This document shows, one piece after another, positions 3,531 to 44,166 of a stretch of DNA of 64,000 nt. The DNA comes from Prosthecobacter sp. GTDB lineage: Bacteria; Verrucomicrobiota; Verrucomicrobiia; Verrucomicrobiales; Verrucomicrobiaceae. Position numbers and translations under genes: made by a program. How positions within the stretch are numbered: position 1 is the stretch's first letter; the number at the start of each line of letters is the position of its first letter. The notes below the pieces were generated by a model. That model ran no database searches. It was not told where the DNA came from and saw nothing but the letters and a program-made list of their open reading frames with translations. The stretch is from NCBI GenBank assembly GCA_019186985.1, contig JABARQ010000041.1, positions 62,001 through 126,000 on the forward strand, written 5' to 3'.

Positions 3531-3545
3531 TTTGCCGGATCAGGC
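3525..3545. terminator. hairpin spanning two convergent stop codons
   Basis: A perfect 7-bp stem (GCCTGAT, 3525-3531, with ATCAGGC, 3539-3545) around a 7-base loop contains the mpl stop codon in its left arm and the minus-strand adenylation-gene stop in its right arm. There is no T-tract on either side, so it is at best a weak bidirectional terminator. Confidence 0.3.
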
Positions 3546-4751
3546 GTCAGGTTGAAAGATGGAAACCCATTTCCGAGGCACCTCCCAGGGGGCGAGGGCG
3601 GCGCAGGCGCTGCTTTTGAAGGCCTGGGTGAGCTGTTCCCTGGGAAGCTTGATGGCGCAAACCACGTCCTGGGTGCGTTCGGGGTCGCGGCTGGGCACGC
3701 CGCTGACGGTCACCTCGTGGATGCCGGTGGCTTCACGAATCCGGGAGGCGATCTCCGTGGGGCTGAGCTTGCGGCTGGCGACGTTGATGCCGTTGCCCAG
3801 GCATGTTTGAAAAAGCAGCCGGCCTCCGTCTTCCGTGATCACATCCCAGGTCAGATGTTCGGAGGCTTCCAGGACATCACCGGGCAGGACTTCATCATAG
3901 CCAAGACCTGCCGCATCACTCCGGACCCGCAGGCGTCCGCCTTGTTCCTGCCGGATTTCAAGGCCGGGGAGCAGGGAGCCGATGTCCTCGGCGGAACCGC
4001 GCGGCGTGAGCGTGGCGTCGTAGCTGATGGCTCCGCATTCACTGGTGCCGTACAGGTTGTGCAGCTTGAAGCCAAAGGTGTCGCGCACCTGTTGTTCAAG
4101 GCTCAGGGTCAGCGGCGATCCTGCGGTGACGGCGAGGCAGACCTGGCGGAGGTCGAGCGCGGCGATGAGCCAGGCCTTCCACATGGCAGGCACGCCGGGG
4201 AGAAACACTTTTTGATGCTGGGCGAGGGCCTCGTTGATTCCGGCGGGGAACGGGGTGGGCAGCCAGTGGGTTGGCAGGCCGTTGAACAGGGTTTGCAGGA
4301 CGGTGGTGGTCAGGCCGAAGGAGTGCGCCACACTGAGCGGAGCCAGGGCCACCTCAGGGTGATGAAGTTCCAGCGCTTGATGGAGACGATCCACGTCGGC
4401 GGCGATTTGGGCCAGGGTGAAGAACTGGCATCTGCGCACTCCTGAGCTGCCCACCGTCTGCTTGATCAGGGAGACCGGCGATTCCGGGACGGAGTGAGGC
4501 ACACGCCGCTGGCGGTCCATTTCAACGACCTGCACGGGCAGGCCGGTGAGGAATCCCGCAAGCAGGGCCAGGGTGACTTTGACGCCATCGCCCTGGGCCA
4601 GGAAAAAGGCGCCGAGACGAGGGCAGTGCCGTGGCTGCAGGCTGCGGGCGAGCTGGTCGAGTTCCTGAAAGGTCAGGGCACCGCCAGGATGCCAGAGGGC
4701 GGTCTGCCCGCCTTTCTGATTCAGGATGTTTTTCCAGCGATCACCAAACAT
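3540..4751 (-). CDS. acyl-adenylating-like (ANL superfamily) protein without the C-terminal lysine segment
   Basis: The 403-residue product resembles the large domain of AMP-forming acyl-CoA/acyl-ACP synthetases. Visible motifs in order are a degenerate phosphate loop VGSSGVRR (family norm TSGSTGxPK), the stretch APLSVAHSFGLTTT, the adenine motif NLYGTSECGAI, and the hinge region DVITEDGGRLLFQ. The protein stops at WEVPRKWVSIFQPDA, just where the A10 segment PxxxxGKxxR would begin. The lysine that activates the acid for adenylation is therefore missing, and the family is usually 500 or more residues long. It may catalyse only thioester formation, bind an acyl-AMP, or be inactive. The ATG at 4751 was chosen because upstream codons are Arg-rich. 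It is divergent from the ketosynthase gene with about 120 bases between the starts. Confidence 0.7.
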   Translation of the reverse strand: MFGDRWKNILNQKGGQTALWHPGGALTFQELDQLARSLQPRHCPRLGAFFLAQGDGVKVTLALLAGFLTGLPVQVVEMDRQRRVPHSVPESPVSLIKQTVGSSGVRRCQFFTLAQIAADVDRLHQALELHHPEVALAPLSVAHSFGLTTTVLQTLFNGLPTHWLPTPFPAGINEALAQHQKVFLPGVPAMWKAWLIAALDLRQVCLAVTAGSPLTLSLEQQVRDTFGFKLHNLYGTSECGAISYDATLTPRGSAEDIGSLLPGLEIRQEQGGRLRVRSDAAGLGYDEVLPGDVLEASEHLTWDVITEDGGRLLFQTCLGNGINVASRKLSPTEIASRIREATGIHEVTVSGVPSRDPERTQDVVCAIKLPREQLTQAFKSSACAALAPWEVPRKWVSIFQPDA

Positions 4752-4872
4752 TTGACACTCAAGCCTGCGCGCCCTTAAACCGAATCTGCGACAACGCAAC
4801 CCTGGCGAGTCTGGCGTGCGGATTCAAGCGCTGGAATCCATGGGGCCTTGCCGGCCGTTTTTCCTGACATTC
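4752..4872. promoter_or_regulatory. shared divergent promoter region of the adenylation and ketosynthase genes
   Basis: The 121 bases between the two chosen start codons must hold the promoters for both genes, if each is expressed on its own. I could not pick out convincing -35/-10 boxes or a palindromic operator. The assignment rests on gene orientation. Confidence 0.4.
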
Positions 4873-7152
4873 ATGGCGAACCTTCCCTCCTCCGAACGCA
4901 TCCTGGTCACGGGCGCGGGCATCGTGTCGCCGCTGGGGATGAACTGGCGTGAGAACGAGGCCTCGTTCCGGGCGAACCGGATGAATTTCACGCCGGTCAC
5001 CGCCTTTGACGTCAGCCAGCGGATCGCGAAGACGGCGGCCCAGGTGGACCTGCCGGACGAGCGGCTGTTTCTGAAAGTGCCTTCGAGGCGTGATGCGCTG
5101 ATTGATCGCGGCACCAGGATGCTCCTTCTCGCCGTTCGTGAGGCCCTGGCGATGGCGGGCATGTCCGGGCTGAAGGGGGTGGATGCCATCATCATCGGCA
5201 CTTCGGCGGGGGCGATGAGCGTGGGGCAGGATTATTTTCGCAAGGCCATCAGCAGCCAGGGCCGTGTGCCCGGCCAGCTGTCGAGGGTGGAGTTTTACCA
5301 GCCGCAGAAGCAGATCGCCGCGATTGCCGCGGAGCATGACTGGCATGGACCGATTCTTGTGGTCTCCAACGCCTGCGCCAGCGGTGCCAATGCGATCGGG
5401 GACGCGATGGCGATGATTCAGAGCGGTCGTGCCAGGCGGGTGCTTGCCGGTGGTTACGATGCGCTGGCCGAGCTGGTGTTTGCCGGATTTGACACACTGC
5501 GCGCCCTGGCTCCGAGCGGAGTTCCGCGTCCATTTGATGCCGCTCGTGACGGTCTTGCTCTGGGTGAGGGGGCTGCGGTGGTGCTGTTGGAAAGCGAGTC
5601 CGCCGCCGCAGAGCGAAGAGCCCCAGAGCCTCTGGCGTTGGCGGCGGGTTATGCGACCGCGACGGACCTGCATCACCTGACGCAGCCGGATCCTGAAGGC
5701 AAGGCCGCCATTCGCACGATGCGGGGCGCCTGTGAAATGGCCGGAGTCCGGCCTGAGGAGGTGGATTACATTAACTCGCACGGCACGGGCACTCCTTACA
5801 ACGATGTGGCTGAGGCCAGCGCCATTGAGGCCTGGGCGGGTGAAGCAGCTCCGGGCATCGCCCTGAGTTCCACGAAGTCGGCGATGGGTCATCTGCTCGG
5901 TGGTGCCGGGGCCGTGGAGGCGGTGATCTGCCTCATGGCCATGCGGGGTCAGTGGCTTCCCGCCAGCCTGAACATCCGGGAGGTGGATCCGGCGGTGAAA
6001 TCCAGGCTGGTGCGCGAATGGCGTGAAGGGCGGGTCGGGGTGACCCTGACCAACAGTTTCGGCTTTGGCGGAACCAATGCCACGCTGGTGTTCCGCCCGG
6101 CTTCCGCCAGCCTGCCAGGCTTGAGCGCTTCCGTTGCCTCCAAGGCCGTGAAGATCGCCGGTGCGGGAGCGGTTTCGCCCGCAGGCTGGGGGGTGTCGGC
6201 CCTGGTTCAGGCGGTGACGTCACGGCAGGAGCTGCCTCTTGTGGAAAGCCCGCGCAGTGTGGCAAACCGTGACTGGAGCTGCCCGGTGCGTTTTGTTCCA
6301 CCGGCCCCTCCGGATGCGCTGCCGAAATTCGCCCGCCTGCGCCGGGCCAGCGCTGTCACCAAATTCGCCATGGGAGCTGCGCTGGAGGCCCTGGCTTCCG
6401 CCGGTTTCCCGAACGGGCAGGGTGCGGGCAGGCTGGGCATCATCCAGTGCATGTTCAACGGCTGCGTCCAGTTCAGCGGCCGGTTTTACCACGAGGTGAT
6501 CGAGACTCCGGCGCTGGCCAGTCCGCTGATCTTCCCTGAAACGGTTTACAACGCCCCGGCGTCGCACATCGCCGCCTTCCTGGGGGTGGACGGGCCGGTC
6601 ACCACGCTCATTGGTGAATCCAGCGCCATCATGGAGGGCGTGGCGATGGCGCGTGACTGGCTGACGCTTGGCTGGGCGGACCGCGTGCTGGTCATCGGGG
6701 CGGAGGAGGGTGACTGGGTGGGTGCCGAAGCCGTAACTTATTATCATCCTGAGCTCCATGCCTCCGAGGGGGCTGGCGCGATTCTTCTCAGCCTGCAGGA
6801 TCCGGGCCCGGCTCTGGAGGCCAGCCCTGCCTTCTGCTTCCTGACTGAGTCCGAACGTGCGGACTGCCTGGGACGGCTTGCCGGGCAGCAGGTCTTGAAT
6901 GCCGGGCCGCCTGACATCCACGTCAGCGGCCGCTGCGGCATAGCGATCCTTGATGAGGCGGAGGAGGCCTTGCAGGCCGGCCAGGGCGCCGGGCAGGTGC
7001 TTGAGCCGCGTGCGGTGCTTGGAGAAAGCATGGGCGCGGGTGGGGTCCTTCAGCTGGCGCTTGCCGCGCAGATGGCCCGGGAGGGGCGGGCCGTCCAGGT
7101 GCTCCTGCCTGGCAGCCTGTGCGCGGCCTATGCCGCCCTGGTCAGGCCGTGA
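4873..7152 (+). CDS. double beta-ketoacyl synthase: active KS fused to a KS-like chain-length-factor half
   Basis: The 759-residue protein contains two ketosynthase folds. The first (about residues 8-410) is FabF-like with a complete Cys-His-His triad: Cys168 in SNACASGANAIG, His303 in NSHGTGTPYND and His340 in KSAMGHLLGGAG. The second (about 425-755) aligns by eye over the same fold, but the nucleophile position is Ser583 (GESSAIMEG) and the second catalytic histidine appears to be replaced in GESMGAGG. This resembles the KS-alpha/chain-length-factor heterodimer of type II polyketide and aryl-polyene systems, here joined in one chain. FabF itself is about 410 residues. The start MANLPSSERI was preferred over an earlier ATG at 4816. 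No ACP, ketoreductase or dehydratase is adjacent, so the product is unknown. Confidence 0.88.
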   Translation: MANLPSSERILVTGAGIVSPLGMNWRENEASFRANRMNFTPVTAFDVSQRIAKTAAQVDLPDERLFLKVPSRRDALIDRGTRMLLLAVREALAMAGMSGLKGVDAIIIGTSAGAMSVGQDYFRKAISSQGRVPGQLSRVEFYQPQKQIAAIAAEHDWHGPILVVSNACASGANAIGDAMAMIQSGRARRVLAGGYDALAELVFAGFDTLRALAPSGVPRPFDAARDGLALGEGAAVVLLESESAAAERRAPEPLALAAGYATATDLHHLTQPDPEGKAAIRTMRGACEMAGVRPEEVDYINSHGTGTPYNDVAEASAIEAWAGEAAPGIALSSTKSAMGHLLGGAGAVEAVICLMAMRGQWLPASLNIREVDPAVKSRLVREWREGRVGVTLTNSFGFGGTNATLVFRPASASLPGLSASVASKAVKIAGAGAVSPAGWGVSALVQAVTSRQELPLVESPRSVANRDWSCPVRFVPPAPPDALPKFARLRRASAVTKFAMGAALEALASAGFPNGQGAGRLGIIQCMFNGCVQFSGRFYHEVIETPALASPLIFPETVYNAPASHIAAFLGVDGPVTTLIGESSAIMEGVAMARDWLTLGWADRVLVIGAEEGDWVGAEAVTYYHPELHASEGAGAILLSLQDPGPALEASPAFCFLTESERADCLGRLAGQQVLNAGPPDIHVSGRCGIAILDEAEEALQAGQGAGQVLEPRAVLGESMGAGGVLQLALAAQMAREGRAVQVLLPGSLCAAYAALVRP

Positions 7153-27937: not shown

Positions 27938-28846
27938 ATGATCCCCGGGCGCCGCTGTCTCCGCATCCTGATTCGCCTTGCCGTCTCATTGGTCATGCTG
28001 GCCATGCTGCTGTTCGGGGCGGGCTGGTGGTATTTTCATCCCGCCTTCACGCTCACGCCGGGCCTTGTTTACACAACGCGGCACGGTCATGGCCTGACCC
28101 TGGATGTGGTGCGCCCTGAGCGGCCCTCAGGCAGCGCCATCCTGGTGATGGTGAGCGGACGCTGGAAGTCGGACCCGGGCAAGTTCAGGCCCTGGATGGC
28201 CGCCTCCTTCCTGCGCCAGGGACACACGGTGGTGGCCGTATCCCACCTGTCGCAGCCGGAGGCCACGGTTCAGGAAATTGTGGAGGACATGCACCGGGCC
28301 GTCCGGTTTGTCCGGCATCACGCCAGAAGTCATGGCATTGATCCGAACCGACTGGGGGTGTTCGGCGGCAGCTCCGGCGGCCATCTCAGCCTGATGCTCG
28401 CCACGCGCGGCGGTCCCGGTGATCCAGCGGCCGTGGATCCGGTGGACCGTGAAAGCAGCGCCGTTCAGGCCGTGACGGTGTTTTATCCCGTCACCGACCT
28501 CCTGAACCTGGGGCCATCCACGGAGAACCTGGGCGACAACGGTCCGCCGAAGAGCTTTCGCAAGTCCTTCGGCCCCGCTGCTGCCGATCCTGTCGAGTGG
28601 CGTAAAATCGGCCGCGAGATCTCGCCCATCTTTCATGTCACCAGCCGCCTGCCACCGGTCAGCATCACCCATGGCGGCGCCGACACCCTGGTGCCCCCCG
28701 AGCAGTCCCTGCGCTTTCAGCAGAAGGCTTCCGAACTGGGGCGCGAGGTTCAGGTGACCATCCGCCAGGGGGAACGGCATGGCTGGCCGACAATGCTCTG
28801 GGACGCGCACCTGTTCGCCTGTTGGTTGACGGAGAAGCTGCGCTGA
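27938..28846 (+). CDS. membrane-anchored or exported alpha/beta hydrolase
   Basis: The 302-residue product has a basic N-terminus and one hydrophobic segment (about 12-32), then an alpha/beta-hydrolase domain of the esterase/peptidase-like type. The nucleophile elbow is GGSSGGH (about residues 147-153), the acid is Asp in HGGADTLVPP and the histidine is in GERHGW, giving a complete Ser-Asp-His triad. It lies 16 bases after the DUF1549/1553 gene and 54 bases before the oxidoreductase gene, so the three probably form one transcript. Likely activity is carbohydrate ester or lactone hydrolysis, by analogy only. Confidence 0.85.
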   Translation: MIPGRRCLRILIRLAVSLVMLAMLLFGAGWWYFHPAFTLTPGLVYTTRHGHGLTLDVVRPERPSGSAILVMVSGRWKSDPGKFRPWMAASFLRQGHTVVAVSHLSQPEATVQEIVEDMHRAVRFVRHHARSHGIDPNRLGVFGGSSGGHLSLMLATRGGPGDPAAVDPVDRESSAVQAVTVFYPVTDLLNLGPSTENLGDNGPPKSFRKSFGPAAADPVEWRKIGREISPIFHVTSRLPPVSITHGGADTLVPPEQSLRFQQKASELGREVQVTIRQGERHGWPTMLWDAHLFACWLTEKLR

Positions 28847-28899
28847 AGCACCGGCCACATTTGCTGAAAGCCGGGGAGGCCTGGCTTCGTGTTCGCTTC

Positions 28900-30324
28900 A
28901 TGCCTTCATCCGCCGCCTCCGTCTCCCGTCGTCATTTCATCACCGCCTCCCTTGCCGGAGGGGCTGTGGGTCGGCCGGGCCTGTCGGCGGCAGCGTCCGC
29001 TGTGAGTCCGGGGAGCTTCAGCGAACCCTCCCGTGACATCCCCCTCACGGCGGATGCTGATGTCATCGTCTGCGGGGCCGGGCCTGCCGGGGTGACCGCC
29101 GCCATCACGGCGACCCGAGCTGGTGCCAAGGTGCGCCTGTTTGAATGGCGCGGCTGCCTGGGAGGCGTCTGGACGGCGGGCCTTCTGGGCTACTTCCTTG
29201 ATTTCAACAAGCCTGGTTTTGCCAGGGAGCTGCGCGACAAGCTCGATGCCCGCGATGCGAGGGCCAAGTCCACCAGCACGAGCCGCTTCTGCTATGATCC
29301 CGAGGCGCTCAAGCTGCTGCTGGAGGAGCTGTGCGTGGAAGCCGGCGTGAAGTTCCAGTTTCATACGAAGGTCTGCGCGGCCTTCAGGGAAGGCGGCCGT
29401 CTCACCACCATCGTCACGGAATCCAAGTCGGGCCGCCAGGCCTGGAAGGCGCCGGTGTTCATCGACACCACGGGCGATGGCGACCTGGGTTTCCAGGCGG
29501 GCTGCGGCTTTGAAACGGGCATGGCCGAGGACTGCCCCTGCCAGCCGATGTCACTCAACGCACTGCTGGTGGTCAGGGACGCCGAGGCCCTGCGTGAGTT
29601 CATCCGCTTCGGCCAGCCGATGAAGGGTGAGAACACCGACGGCGAGAAGAAGAAACGCATCAAGGAGGTGCTTGTGGGCACCGGCCATTTCCCCAGCTAT
29701 GCGAGTCCAACCATGTGGCATGTGCGGGACAACCTGGTCTTTGCGATGATGAACCACGAATATGGCATCAAGGCCTGGGACGCCGCCGAAATCACCGCAG
29801 CCACGGCAAGGGCCCGTGCCGAGATGAACAAGATGGTTGCCAACCTCCGCGCCCTGGGCGGCCCCTGGGAGGGAATCCAGGTCGTGGCCACGGCCGAGCA
29901 GATCGGCGTGCGCGACGGACGCCGCATCAAGGGGCGTTACACGGTGCTCCAGGACGACCTCGCGAAGGGGGCGCGCCATGAGGATGCCGTGACGCGTGTG
30001 ACCTTTGGCATCGACGTCCACGCCCTGAGCGCCGAGCATAACAAAAACCACGCCATCATGCCGAAGGAGGTCGACATGAAGCCCTACGACATCCCGCTCC
30101 GCGCCTTGATTGCGAAGGATGTCGACGGGCTCATGATGGCCGGACGCTGCATCAGCGGCGACTTCATCGCGCATTCGAGCTACCGGGTCACCGGCAACGC
30201 CGTGGCCATGGGCGAGGCGGCGGGAGTCACGGCGGCCCTTGCCGCCCTTTCGAAGAAGATGCCTCATGACATCACCTGGGGCGAAAGCCTGGAGAAGCTG
30301 AAGGCGATGGGCCAGCGCGCCTGA
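28900..30324 (+). CDS. Tat-exported FAD-dependent oxidoreductase
   Basis: The 474-residue protein starts with a twin-arginine signal (SRRHFITASLAGGAV). Then comes an FAD-binding Rossmann motif VIVCGAGPAGVTAAI (about residues 50-65) and a second FAD contact FIDTTGDGDLGF. The C-terminal half has AGRCISGDFIAHSSYRVTGNAVAMGEAAG, a signature of the FAD-oxidoreductase group common in planctomycetes and verrucomicrobia. I chose the ATG at 28900 because it puts the twin Arg near the start; an earlier ATG at 28822 overlaps the hydrolase gene. Substrate is unknown; oxidation of a sugar or sugar-derived polyol is suggested by context. Confidence 0.9.
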   Translation: MPSSAASVSRRHFITASLAGGAVGRPGLSAAASAVSPGSFSEPSRDIPLTADADVIVCGAGPAGVTAAITATRAGAKVRLFEWRGCLGGVWTAGLLGYFLDFNKPGFARELRDKLDARDARAKSTSTSRFCYDPEALKLLLEELCVEAGVKFQFHTKVCAAFREGGRLTTIVTESKSGRQAWKAPVFIDTTGDGDLGFQAGCGFETGMAEDCPCQPMSLNALLVVRDAEALREFIRFGQPMKGENTDGEKKKRIKEVLVGTGHFPSYASPTMWHVRDNLVFAMMNHEYGIKAWDAAEITAATARARAEMNKMVANLRALGGPWEGIQVVATAEQIGVRDGRRIKGRYTVLQDDLAKGARHEDAVTRVTFGIDVHALSAEHNKNHAIMPKEVDMKPYDIPLRALIAKDVDGLMMAGRCISGDFIAHSSYRVTGNAVAMGEAAGVTAALAALSKKMPHDITWGESLEKLKAMGQRA

Positions 30325-42451: not shown

Positions 42452-43570
42452 TCAGGGAGGGGATTCCCCGCCTGTTGGCTCCGCCGGGCCGGAGGGCGGT
42501 GGCGGCTCCGCCGGTCCTTTGAGGTCATGCAGCCGTGTGCGGGTGATCTGGGCGCGGCGTACGTCACGCTCCTCCGGGCTCAGTTCGATGCCGGCCCGCA
42601 TTTGCAGGTGGGCGGGCTGGATTTCCAGGAGCAGCAGGTCGAGAAGGCCGCGGTCGCAGTCCGGGATGAGGTCGAGGTCGGCGCCCAGGCGGAGCAGGGA
42701 CAGCAGGTTGAGCGCCTCCTTGGAGGTCAGCACATGGGAGTAGCGAAGGATGGCGAAGGCCCTGCCGACCTGGTCGTGCAGCATGGTGGCATTGTCCTCA
42801 AGCAGCTTGTGGCGGGCGTTGACCTCGTTGTTCACCACCCGTTCGATCACCTTTTCGATGGCGGCGATGATGTCCTCCTCACGTTCTCCCAGCGTGTGCT
42901 GGTTGGAGATCTGGAACAGGTTCCCGAGCGCCTCGGTGCCTTCTCCGTAAAGGCCGCGCACAGCCAGGCCGATCTTGCCGATGGCCTTGATGACGGGGTT
43001 GATCTGCTCCGTGAGGGCGAGCGCTGGCAGGTGCATCATGACTGAGGCGCGCATGCCGGTGCCGACGTTGGTGGGGCAGGCGGTGAGGTAGCCGAGTTCG
43101 CGGTCGAAGGCATAGGGAAGCCGGGCTTCGAGCTCGCTGTCCACATGATCCACGAGCTGCCAGGCGCTGCGCAGGTTGAGCCCCGGGCGGATGCCCTGGA
43201 TGCGGAAGTGATCCTCCTCGTTGATCATGATCGACAGGTTCTGCCGGGCGTCGATGACGACCGCGCAGCCGGCGGCACGCGCCGCATGTTCGCGGCTGAC
43301 GAGGTGGCGTTCGACCAGGACCTGCTTCTTGATCTTGCTGATGGTGGCGTAGTCCTCGCTGTAGTGCTCGGCCATTTCGGGCAGTCCTTCGACCACGGGG
43401 CGGGCCAGGTTGAGCAGGTCCAGGCGCTGGTGTTCCTGGCTGTAGCCGGGGAAGGGGAAGCCACGGAGATTGCGGGCAAGGCGCACGCGCGAGGTCATGA
43501 CAACATCCGAATGTGGGCCGCTGCCCTGCATCCAGTCAGCCGGATGGTTGATGAGGGTCTTGAAGTTCAT
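42452..43570 (-). CDS. mcsB: protein-arginine kinase
   Basis: McsB phosphorylates arginine residues on proteins, marking them for ClpCP degradation in Bacillus and relatives. The 372-residue sequence has the phosphagen-kinase fold signatures: VVMTSRVRLARNL (substrate/nucleotide loop), INEEDHFRIQ, GYLTACPTNVGTGMRASVMMHLPAL and RGLYGEGTEALGNLFQISNQ. The C-terminal tail is Pro/Glu-rich. It is cotranscribed with mcsA, whose stop is 8 bases upstream. CtsR and ClpC genes, usual neighbours in Firmicutes, are not nearby. Confidence 0.95.
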   Translation of the reverse strand: MNFKTLINHPADWMQGSGPHSDVVMTSRVRLARNLRGFPFPGYSQEHQRLDLLNLARPVVEGLPEMAEHYSEDYATISKIKKQVLVERHLVSREHAARAAGCAVVIDARQNLSIMINEEDHFRIQGIRPGLNLRSAWQLVDHVDSELEARLPYAFDRELGYLTACPTNVGTGMRASVMMHLPALALTEQINPVIKAIGKIGLAVRGLYGEGTEALGNLFQISNQHTLGEREEDIIAAIEKVIERVVNNEVNARHKLLEDNATMLHDQVGRAFAILRYSHVLTSKEALNLLSLLRLGADLDLIPDCDRGLLDLLLLEIQPAHLQMRAGIELSPEERDVRRAQITRTRLHDLKGPAEPPPPSGPAEPTGGESPP

Positions 43571-43578
43571 GGTCGGCG

Positions 43579-44166
43579 TCAGGTGGAAGGGGGGGGAGTC
43601 GTGGAAGCGGCGTCGTTGAGCCGGTCGATCTCCTTCTTGAGGGCGGCGGCATCCTCGTAGCGCTCTTCACGCACGGCGTTTTCAAGCTGTTCACGAAGCT
43701 GGGCGACCGTGGGTTTGGCCGGGGCCTGGAGCTGTGGTGGGGGCGGCGGCTGCGCGGGGGGCTCGGTTCTCGGCGGAGGTGAGAGGAGCTTCACCGGCGG
43801 CGGATTGTCCGGAATCAGGGCGGCACGAGCCGGGACCTTGCCCTTGTGGGTGGTGCCCTTGTGCATGGCGCGAAGCAGGTTGTCGAGGCCCTCACGGAAG
43901 GTGTTGTAGCACTCTGGGCAGCCCATGCGGCCGATCTTCTTGAGCTGGGAGGCGGTGAAACCACAGGCTTCGCAGGCCGGCTCGGCCGCAGCGTGAGAAG
44001 ACGGAGGATGGGAACTCAGGAAGGCCTCCGCCAGGCCGAAGCCGGCTTCATCGGTCACTCCCTTGGCCTTGGAGCAGGCGTCACACAGGTTCACCGTTGT
44101 CATCTGCCCGTTGATGATCTGGGTGAGGAATACGGTGGCTTCATTTTCGCAGACGTCGCACTTCAT
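43579..44166 (-). CDS. mcsA: McsA-like zinc-finger activator with UVR motif
   Basis: The 195-residue protein has two CxxC pairs near the start (MKCDVCENEA and CDACSK), a second pair CEACGF and CPEC (about residues 65-90), a Pro-rich linker (about 120-155) and a C-terminal UVR motif, LREQLENAVREERYEDAAALKKEIDRL, of about 36 residues. This is the order of Bacillus McsA, which activates McsB. The long proline linker is unusual. I chose the ATG at 44166 because the MKCDVCENEA start matches the family. Confidence 0.9.
   Translation of the reverse strand: MKCDVCENEATVFLTQIINGQMTTVNLCDACSKAKGVTDEAGFGLAEAFLSSHPPSSHAAAEPACEACGFTASQLKKIGRMGCPECYNTFREGLDNLLRAMHKGTTHKGKVPARAALIPDNPPPVKLLSPPPRTEPPAQPPPPPQLQAPAKPTVAQLREQLENAVREERYEDAAALKKEIDRLNDAASTTPPPST

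Follow-up and report, generated by a model that had tools for sequence, protein, structure and literature searches.

Ketosynthase (KS)-chain length factor (CLF) pairs are known both as separate chains and as parts of one chain. The ishigamide and actinorhodin enzymes, which come from actinomycetes, each consist of two chains, whereas PfaC carries the KS and the CLF on one chain, as part of a large multidomain polyunsaturated fatty acid synthase. In aryl polyene (APE) synthesis, a KS-CLF heterodimer is standard, and the CLF-type partner, ApeC, is described as roughly half as large as its KS, with one thiolase fold (PMC8358021). Here, we analyze a 64,000-nucleotide stretch of a Prosthecobacter sp. 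genome (assembly GCA_019186985.1, contig JABARQ010000041.1, positions 62,001 to 126,000 of the forward strand), hereafter the window, in which a single gene (4873..7152, plus strand) encodes both a KS and a CLF. The fused protein is real and conserved and is well explained as to enzyme type; we consider it, with a probability of roughly 0.7, to be the single-chain KS-CLF of an APE-like lipid-pigment pathway, the other genes of which are scattered over the genome. The labels C, G, and L below denote contigs of the window's genome (G000), genomes, and loci, respectively.

One reading frame for KS and CLF

The gene is one open frame of 759 amino acids that is free of internal stops; an alternative GTG start at 4816, if used, would yield a product of 778 amino acids. 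The catalytic KS half (4873..6108, residues 1 to 412) contains Cys168, His303, and His340, and the CLF half (6127..7149, residues 419 to 759, 341 amino acids) has Ser583 at the nucleophile position. Between them lies a short interdomain linker (6109..6126), with its limits set by alignment; among the fused sequences, the aligned halves are separated by 19 to 67 nucleotides. Scanning of the whole protein identified the N- and C-terminal Pfam ketoacyl-synt domains at residues 8 to 244 and 255 to 368, and the second half scanned alone gave a further ketoacyl-synt stretch, in agreement with the proposal of the sequence-only reading (an earlier interpretation of this DNA made without database searches) that one polypeptide holds two KS folds. 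The score of the protein against the FabF equivalog model, 341.5 bits, is below the cutoff of 493.75.

The residue assignments were checked in an alignment of 20 KS and 20 CLF halves, with the window represented in both sets, plus reference proteins. The complete Cys-His-His triad that had been read in the first half is present in all 20 KS halves, and Cys168, His303, and His340 are invariant across 14 aligned KS halves. Ser583 does sit in the nucleophile column, as had been claimed, and none of the 20 CLF halves has Cys there. The His303 column likewise never contains His in the CLFs, and in the His340 column, 17 have Glu, 2 have His, and 1 has Asn. The apparent lack of the second His in the window protein was therefore correctly noticed but understated: both catalytic His residues are substituted, the first by Gly and the second by Glu. 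A catalytic second half is rejected on the absence of Cys from the nucleophile column and of His from the His303 column.

The structural models point the same way. The CLF half, modeled from an alignment of 21 sequences, contains the helices and strands of both lobes (pLDDT 86.7, pTM 0.88), and the whole chain was modeled with a pLDDT of 83.6 and a pTM of 0.91. The top-ranking match of the whole chain in the PDB is the PfaC KS-CLF (6riw; 883 columns, TMq 0.82), which ranks above every FabF displayed. This model and this match support, without proving, an intramolecular KS-CLF pseudo-dimer. For the CLF half, the first three Foldseek ranks go to chain B in the entries of the ishigamide KS/CLF (6kxd, 6kxe, and 6kxf), chain A of which is named Ketosynthase; the ishigamide and actinorhodin (1tqy) KS-CLFs, both among its best Foldseek matches, are 17 to 20% identical to it. 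Comparison of the CLF half with PDB sequences gave weak KS-type matches, with no ApeC-named chain among the matches listed, which in one of the comparisons were the best 60 of 79.

In a phylogenetic tree of 57 rows, with FabF, NodE, act-type KS/CLF, APE KS/CLF, and the fused proteins of Streptomyces and Priestia as references, the verrucomicrobial KSs form one clade (support 100/100) and the CLFs a separate one (97/96), neither of them inside the FabF group; the five fused CLFs in this tree also form a clade (100/98). The APE CLF, Rahnella KS2, APE KS1, and a KS-like protein encoded on contig C3 are long branches of unsure placement. The original assignment as a fused KS-alpha and CLF is thus upheld by a CLF clade of its own, the lack of the CLF Cys, and the matches to ishigamide chain B and PfaC. 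Branching of the second half within catalytic FabF/KS clades with a conserved Cys, the pattern that the sequence-only reading gave as a reason to abandon this assignment, was not observed.

Nor is the fusion unique to the window; uniqueness was the other ground on which that reading was to be given up. Of 34 further genus genomes searched, 11 contain the fused gene at full or near-full length (69 to 76% identity), and others carry KS and CLF as neighboring genes. Scanning of a species-genome collection with a CLF profile gave at least 588 stretches, of which at least 285 were confirmed. The best 80 loci were retained; the titles of 78 name a verrucomicrobial taxon (Prosthecobacter in several cases), and the other 2 are titled just “bacterium.” Among these 80 loci, 14 are fused (L068 and L134 were scored from gene calls rather than by the frame script), 64 are split into two adjacent genes, and 2 are truncated (L090 and L112, to which no fused or split call was assigned). 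An assembly or pseudogene artifact is ruled out because the same uninterrupted frame recurs in these genomes and loci. When 145 genomes spread evenly over the phylum were sampled, 6 of them, including the window's genome, had the CLF at E 1e-20, so that the distribution of KS-CLF in the phylum is patchy rather than universal.

Of the 64 split pairs, 57 have a potential start codon for the CLF no farther downstream than the KS stop, and a small insertion or deletion could therefore create the fusion. A tree of 81 CLF rows, of which 17 are fused, requires three changes of the fused state, two of them forced by the branches starred in the tree. One group (support 94) unites 14 of the fused rows, that of the window among them; the fused L025 (G047), L134, and L039 (G053) lie outside it. 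In the 57-row tree, the split L095 is placed weakly (90/54) with the fused L092 among the KS halves. On the CLF tree, the simplest reading would be two or three independent fusions, although one gain followed by later splits may also account for the pattern.

The window protein can thus be placed among the described systems. It shares with the type II polyketide synthase pair the KS triad and a Cys-less partner of KS fold, but not the discrete subunits, which are encoded by one frame here and by separate genes in 64 of the 80 relatives. With the PfaC didomain it shares the single chain and a full-length structural match; unlike PfaC, its 759 residues comprise KS and CLF alone, with no further PfaC-type domains, and ACP (acyl carrier protein) and ketoreductase (KR) are separate proteins. 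With ApeO-ApeC of the Escherichia coli, Xenorhabdus, and Acinetobacter APE clusters it has in common a KS and a catalytically dead CLF-type partner, but its CLF, at 341 residues with both lobes modeled, is not of the short one-lobe ApeC type (the APE CLF of Pseudoalteromonas has 237 residues) and is fused to the KS. Single-chain double KSs are also encoded on plasmids of two bacteria of other phyla, Streptomyces sp. HUAS 15-9 (WP_263217262.1, L166:11953-14307) and Priestia megaterium (WP_053488595.1, L167:9998-12427), where the second half has His and Asn, respectively, in place of Cys. Both genes adjoin ACP, KR, and dehydratase (DH) genes, and neither half of either protein falls inside the verrucomicrobial clades.

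A tethered KS-CLF therefore already has precedents in PfaC and in these double KSs. What is new here is the combination of a full-length CLF, one chain, a scattered pathway, and a phylum that does not appear in the 14-phylum list of a recent KS-CLF catalogue, which pairs KS and CLF genes within 2,000 bp (PMC10132072). In the titles and abstract openings of the literature searched, no description was found of a fused KS-CLF in Verrucomicrobiota or of a discrete single-chain KS-CLF; an APE cluster predicted by antiSMASH is reported for Oceaniferula flavus (PMC9865893).

Probable partner genes, clustered and scattered

Immediately upstream of the KS-CLF gene, and divergent from it, is a gene for an AMP-binding acyl ligase of about 403 amino acids with a YGTSE motif (3540..4751, minus strand), which the sequence-only reading had not listed; the intergenic region (4752..4872) spans 121 bp if the ATG starts are right. 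A same-cluster ligase divergently adjoins the KS in 15 of 21 loci compared. The statement that no ACP, reductase, or dehydratase lies nearby holds for the pathway KR, ACP, and DH, none of which was found in the whole window or in the 18 kb upstream. Across that span, the sole partner match besides the ligase is a distant one: an FAD-type oxidoreductase gene (28822-30324, plus strand), some 21 kb away from KS-CLF and similar to an FAD enzyme of locus L186 (E 8e-21), which may be unrelated.

In some relatives, the corresponding genes are clustered. The neighbors of KS-CLF were counted in 81 sources, the window and the best 80 loci, many of which are cut short. One ligase query matched 27 sources and a second one 22 (L139 was matched by both); ACP and a close KR (E ≤1e-50) were each found in 22, the FAD enzyme in 18, and a methyltransferase (MT), a deacetylase, and a Lip_A-type acyltransferase in 14 each. 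One example is the record CALFBI010000014.1 (L139 and L186/L187), where some 19 kb of DNA contain the presumed pathway genes for ACP, FAD enzyme, second ligase, halogenase-like FAD enzyme, LolA, LPG-TM, another ACP, KR, CLF, and KS, together with ligase, FabA-type DH, MMPL, FAD enzyme, acyltransferase, deacetylase, MT, the glycosyltransferase GT2, and another acyltransferase. This set largely corresponds to the E. coli APE gene table, and ligase, ACP, KR, DH, MT, acyltransferase, glycosyltransferase, LolA, and RND/MMPL-type genes are common to the two pathways (PMC8253772).

Most parts of this set, in a search that covered all but LolA, the deacetylase, and the second ligase, have homologs in the window's own genome, in small groups on other contigs. 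Contig C7 encodes the KR (56% identical to that of G040), ACP, LPG-TM, and patatin; C9, an FAD enzyme (65% to that of G008) beside a Lip_A-type acyltransferase (56%); C15, a DH (54% to that of L186) divergent from an acyltransferase; and C45, GT2, MT (63%), and a halogenase/reductase-like FAD enzyme. Contig C13 encodes an MMPL protein that is only 28% alike. Ligase, ACP, KS, CLF, KR, and DH genes are thus all present in one genome, where they probably act together, and the earlier verdict that the pathway is unknown was too pessimistic, given the likely partners elsewhere in the genome. Instead of the single cluster that typifies APE genes, the parts are distributed over C20, C7, C15, C45, and C9. 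The assembly comprises 55 contigs, but the KS-CLF gene lies at least 60 kb from both ends of its own. In the fused genome G009, GT2, MT, and DH are within a few kilobases of each other, so the degree of scattering varies between species.

Several of these proteins resemble those of a Pseudoalteromonas APE-type cluster: GT2 matches its glycosyltransferase (34%, E 1e-53), the C15 acyltransferase its acyltransferase (28%, E 5e-24), and the C45 FAD enzyme its FAD enzyme (29%, E 3e-47). A likeness to flexirubin/xanthomonadin systems is also apparent: the C7 KR matches the FlxB model, albeit below the cutoff (182 versus 340), and both own FAD enzymes contain a WxWxIP motif, which we take to be typical of flavin halogenases. 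On C7, genes for a patatin-like phospholipase and an LPG-TM flippase-like protein come right after the KR-ACP pair (L153:7462-9316), as they do in L154, L190, L191, and the L054 cluster.

The partner genes co-occur with KS-CLF, the presence of which was scored from a genus match list ending at E 5.9e-37. With ortholog cutoffs placed at gaps observed in the E-values, KR (E ≤1e-72, with all others at 1e-51 or worse) was found in 25 of 25 genomes with KS-CLF and in 0 of 9 without (exact probability of 1.9e-8 if the genomes were independent, which they are not). DH and MT were each found in 17 of 17 genomes with KS-CLF and the acyltransferase in 16 of 17, against 0 of 3 without; for the FAD enzyme (≥52% identity), the counts were 21 of 25 and 0 of 9. 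A 42% FAD match in G005 was counted as paralog-like, given that second copies elsewhere are at 40 to 43%. One genus member, G017 (77% complete), has neither KS-CLF nor KR. The MMPL gene was rejected as a pathway-specific marker; it is present in G039, a genome without KS-CLF.

A probable APE-like pathway and its alternatives

Under the reading that we favor, the adjacent ligase would load an acyl or aryl starter acid onto the C7 ACP, and the KS half would condense malonyl-ACP units onto the resulting acyl- or aryl-ACP. The dead CLF half would pack on the KS as an intramolecular pseudo-dimer and shape the chain-length pocket. The C7 KR-ACP pair and the C15 DH would then reduce and dehydrate each unit to yield a conjugated polyene. 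Decoration and lipid attachment might involve GT2, MT, and the FAD enzyme on C45, the FAD enzyme and acyltransferase on C9, and the acyltransferase on C15; flipping or export could be performed by the LPG-TM and patatin proteins encoded on C7 and possibly by the C13 MMPL protein. The whole would work as an APE/flexirubin/xanthomonadin system with scattered genes and with KS and CLF in one frame. The APE likeness proposed by the sequence-only reading is retained for gene content and for the similarity of several partner proteins but not for the CLF, the full-length fold of which is unlike that of ApeC; because of this fold and because the genes are unclustered, we do not file the system as a strict APE cluster.

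A more specific version of this reading is tentative and has somewhat less than even odds. The window protein would be a discrete polyene synthase with tethered KS and CLF, its other enzymes being distributed genome-wide in groups of two to four genes. The tether would replace the translational coupling of an ancestral overlapping pair and so keep the 1:1 stoichiometry after the cluster broke up, perhaps more than once in Verrucomicrobiota.

Least secure in the favored reading is the aromatic nature of the starter, because the window ligase matches known ligases only in general terms and does not match the APE ligase compared. An unlikely alternative, but the best of those considered, is that the same single-chain KS-CLF and scattered pathway are primed by a nonaromatic acid and make another polyene or an unusual lipid. 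The ligase fits only general acyl-CoA/ACP ligase models, at scores far below their cutoffs; the C7 ACP matches several models, including those of cispentacin and ornithine-lipid ACPs, all below cutoff; and the E. coli APE table lists neither patatin nor LPG-TM (PMC8253772). Set against these points are the resemblance of GT2, the second acyltransferase, and the FAD enzyme to APE-cluster proteins and the presence together in L186/L187 of MT, GT2, acyltransferases, MMPL, LolA, and halogenase-like genes. It is less probable still that the partner loci belong to other pathways and that the window KS-CLF uses fatty acid synthase proteins only. The partners are indeed on other contigs, with no operon link to the window gene, but their homologs sit together with KS-CLF in L139/L186 and in L132/L054, and the partner genes co-occur with it. 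Finally, an active or KSQ-like second half that uses Ser583 and has no CLF role is highly improbable: although Ser is kept among the close fused relatives and occurs in 8 of the 20 CLF halves, it is not conserved over the set, the other 12 having A, P, D, G, T, or N, and none of the 20 has His in the His303 column.

Several observations weigh against an APE-like, single-chain KS-CLF pathway. On the enzyme side, Foldseek rank 4 of the CLF half is the actinorhodin KS chain, which leaves a small margin for CLF identity by this method, and VIA-align, with Z of about 35 for KS-type chains in general, does not separate CLF from KS and was rejected as a discriminator. Support for the deep nodes of the 57-row tree is low: the verrucomicrobial CLFs stand apart from those of the act type and of Priestia, and APE KS2, rather than KS1, is the weakly supported neighbor (94/80) of the KS clade. 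On the pathway side, the window ligase does not match the Pseudoalteromonas APE ligase (E 0.01), to which a related verrucomicrobial ligase is just 22% identical. In L186/L187, the thioesterase, ApeG, LolB-like, and extra KS counterparts of the E. coli table were not recognized, and additions such as LPG-TM, deacetylase, and FAD enzymes are present. LolA and MMPL genes are both found in L186; in the window's genome, the search for MMPL gave only the 28% match, which is unspecific, as the MMPL gene of G039 illustrates. The FAD enzyme is missing or only paralog-like in 4 of the 25 genomes (G003, G005, G037, and G040) and the acyltransferase in 1 of the 17 (G003). The co-occurrence counts are not independent because most genomes are close kin, and their cutoffs were set after the gap in E-values had been seen.

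KS-CLF heterodimers are often difficult to produce in foreign organisms, and a natural 759-residue single chain, in which the stoichiometry is fixed, would make a convenient scaffold; if the reading is true, type II engineering would gain single-chain KS-CLF enzymes of natural origin. Scattered pathways of this kind could escape methods that seek clusters or neighboring KS and CLF genes. The groups on C7, C9, C15, and C45 point to specific candidate genes for polyene lipid synthesis in bacteria resembling Prosthecobacter.

Other genes of note

Other KS-type matches in the window's genome are a FabF-like protein on C19 and, judged by reading, thiolases on C31 and C21. The KS-like protein on C3 (L008:8821-9906) is an orphan of 361 amino acids with the motif ASGCSAG and a long tree branch; the preceding gene reads as an FAD-linked oxidase. 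In G040, a called protein of 523 amino acids (L198:5632-7203, contig C82) combines a GT2-like N terminus with the pathway methyltransferase at its C terminus, near LolA, acyltransferase, and MMPL genes, and may represent another fusion of components of this pathway. Elsewhere in the window, two adjoining genes (42452-44166, minus strand) resemble, by eye, those for McsB, a protein arginine kinase, and for McsA, the partner of McsB.

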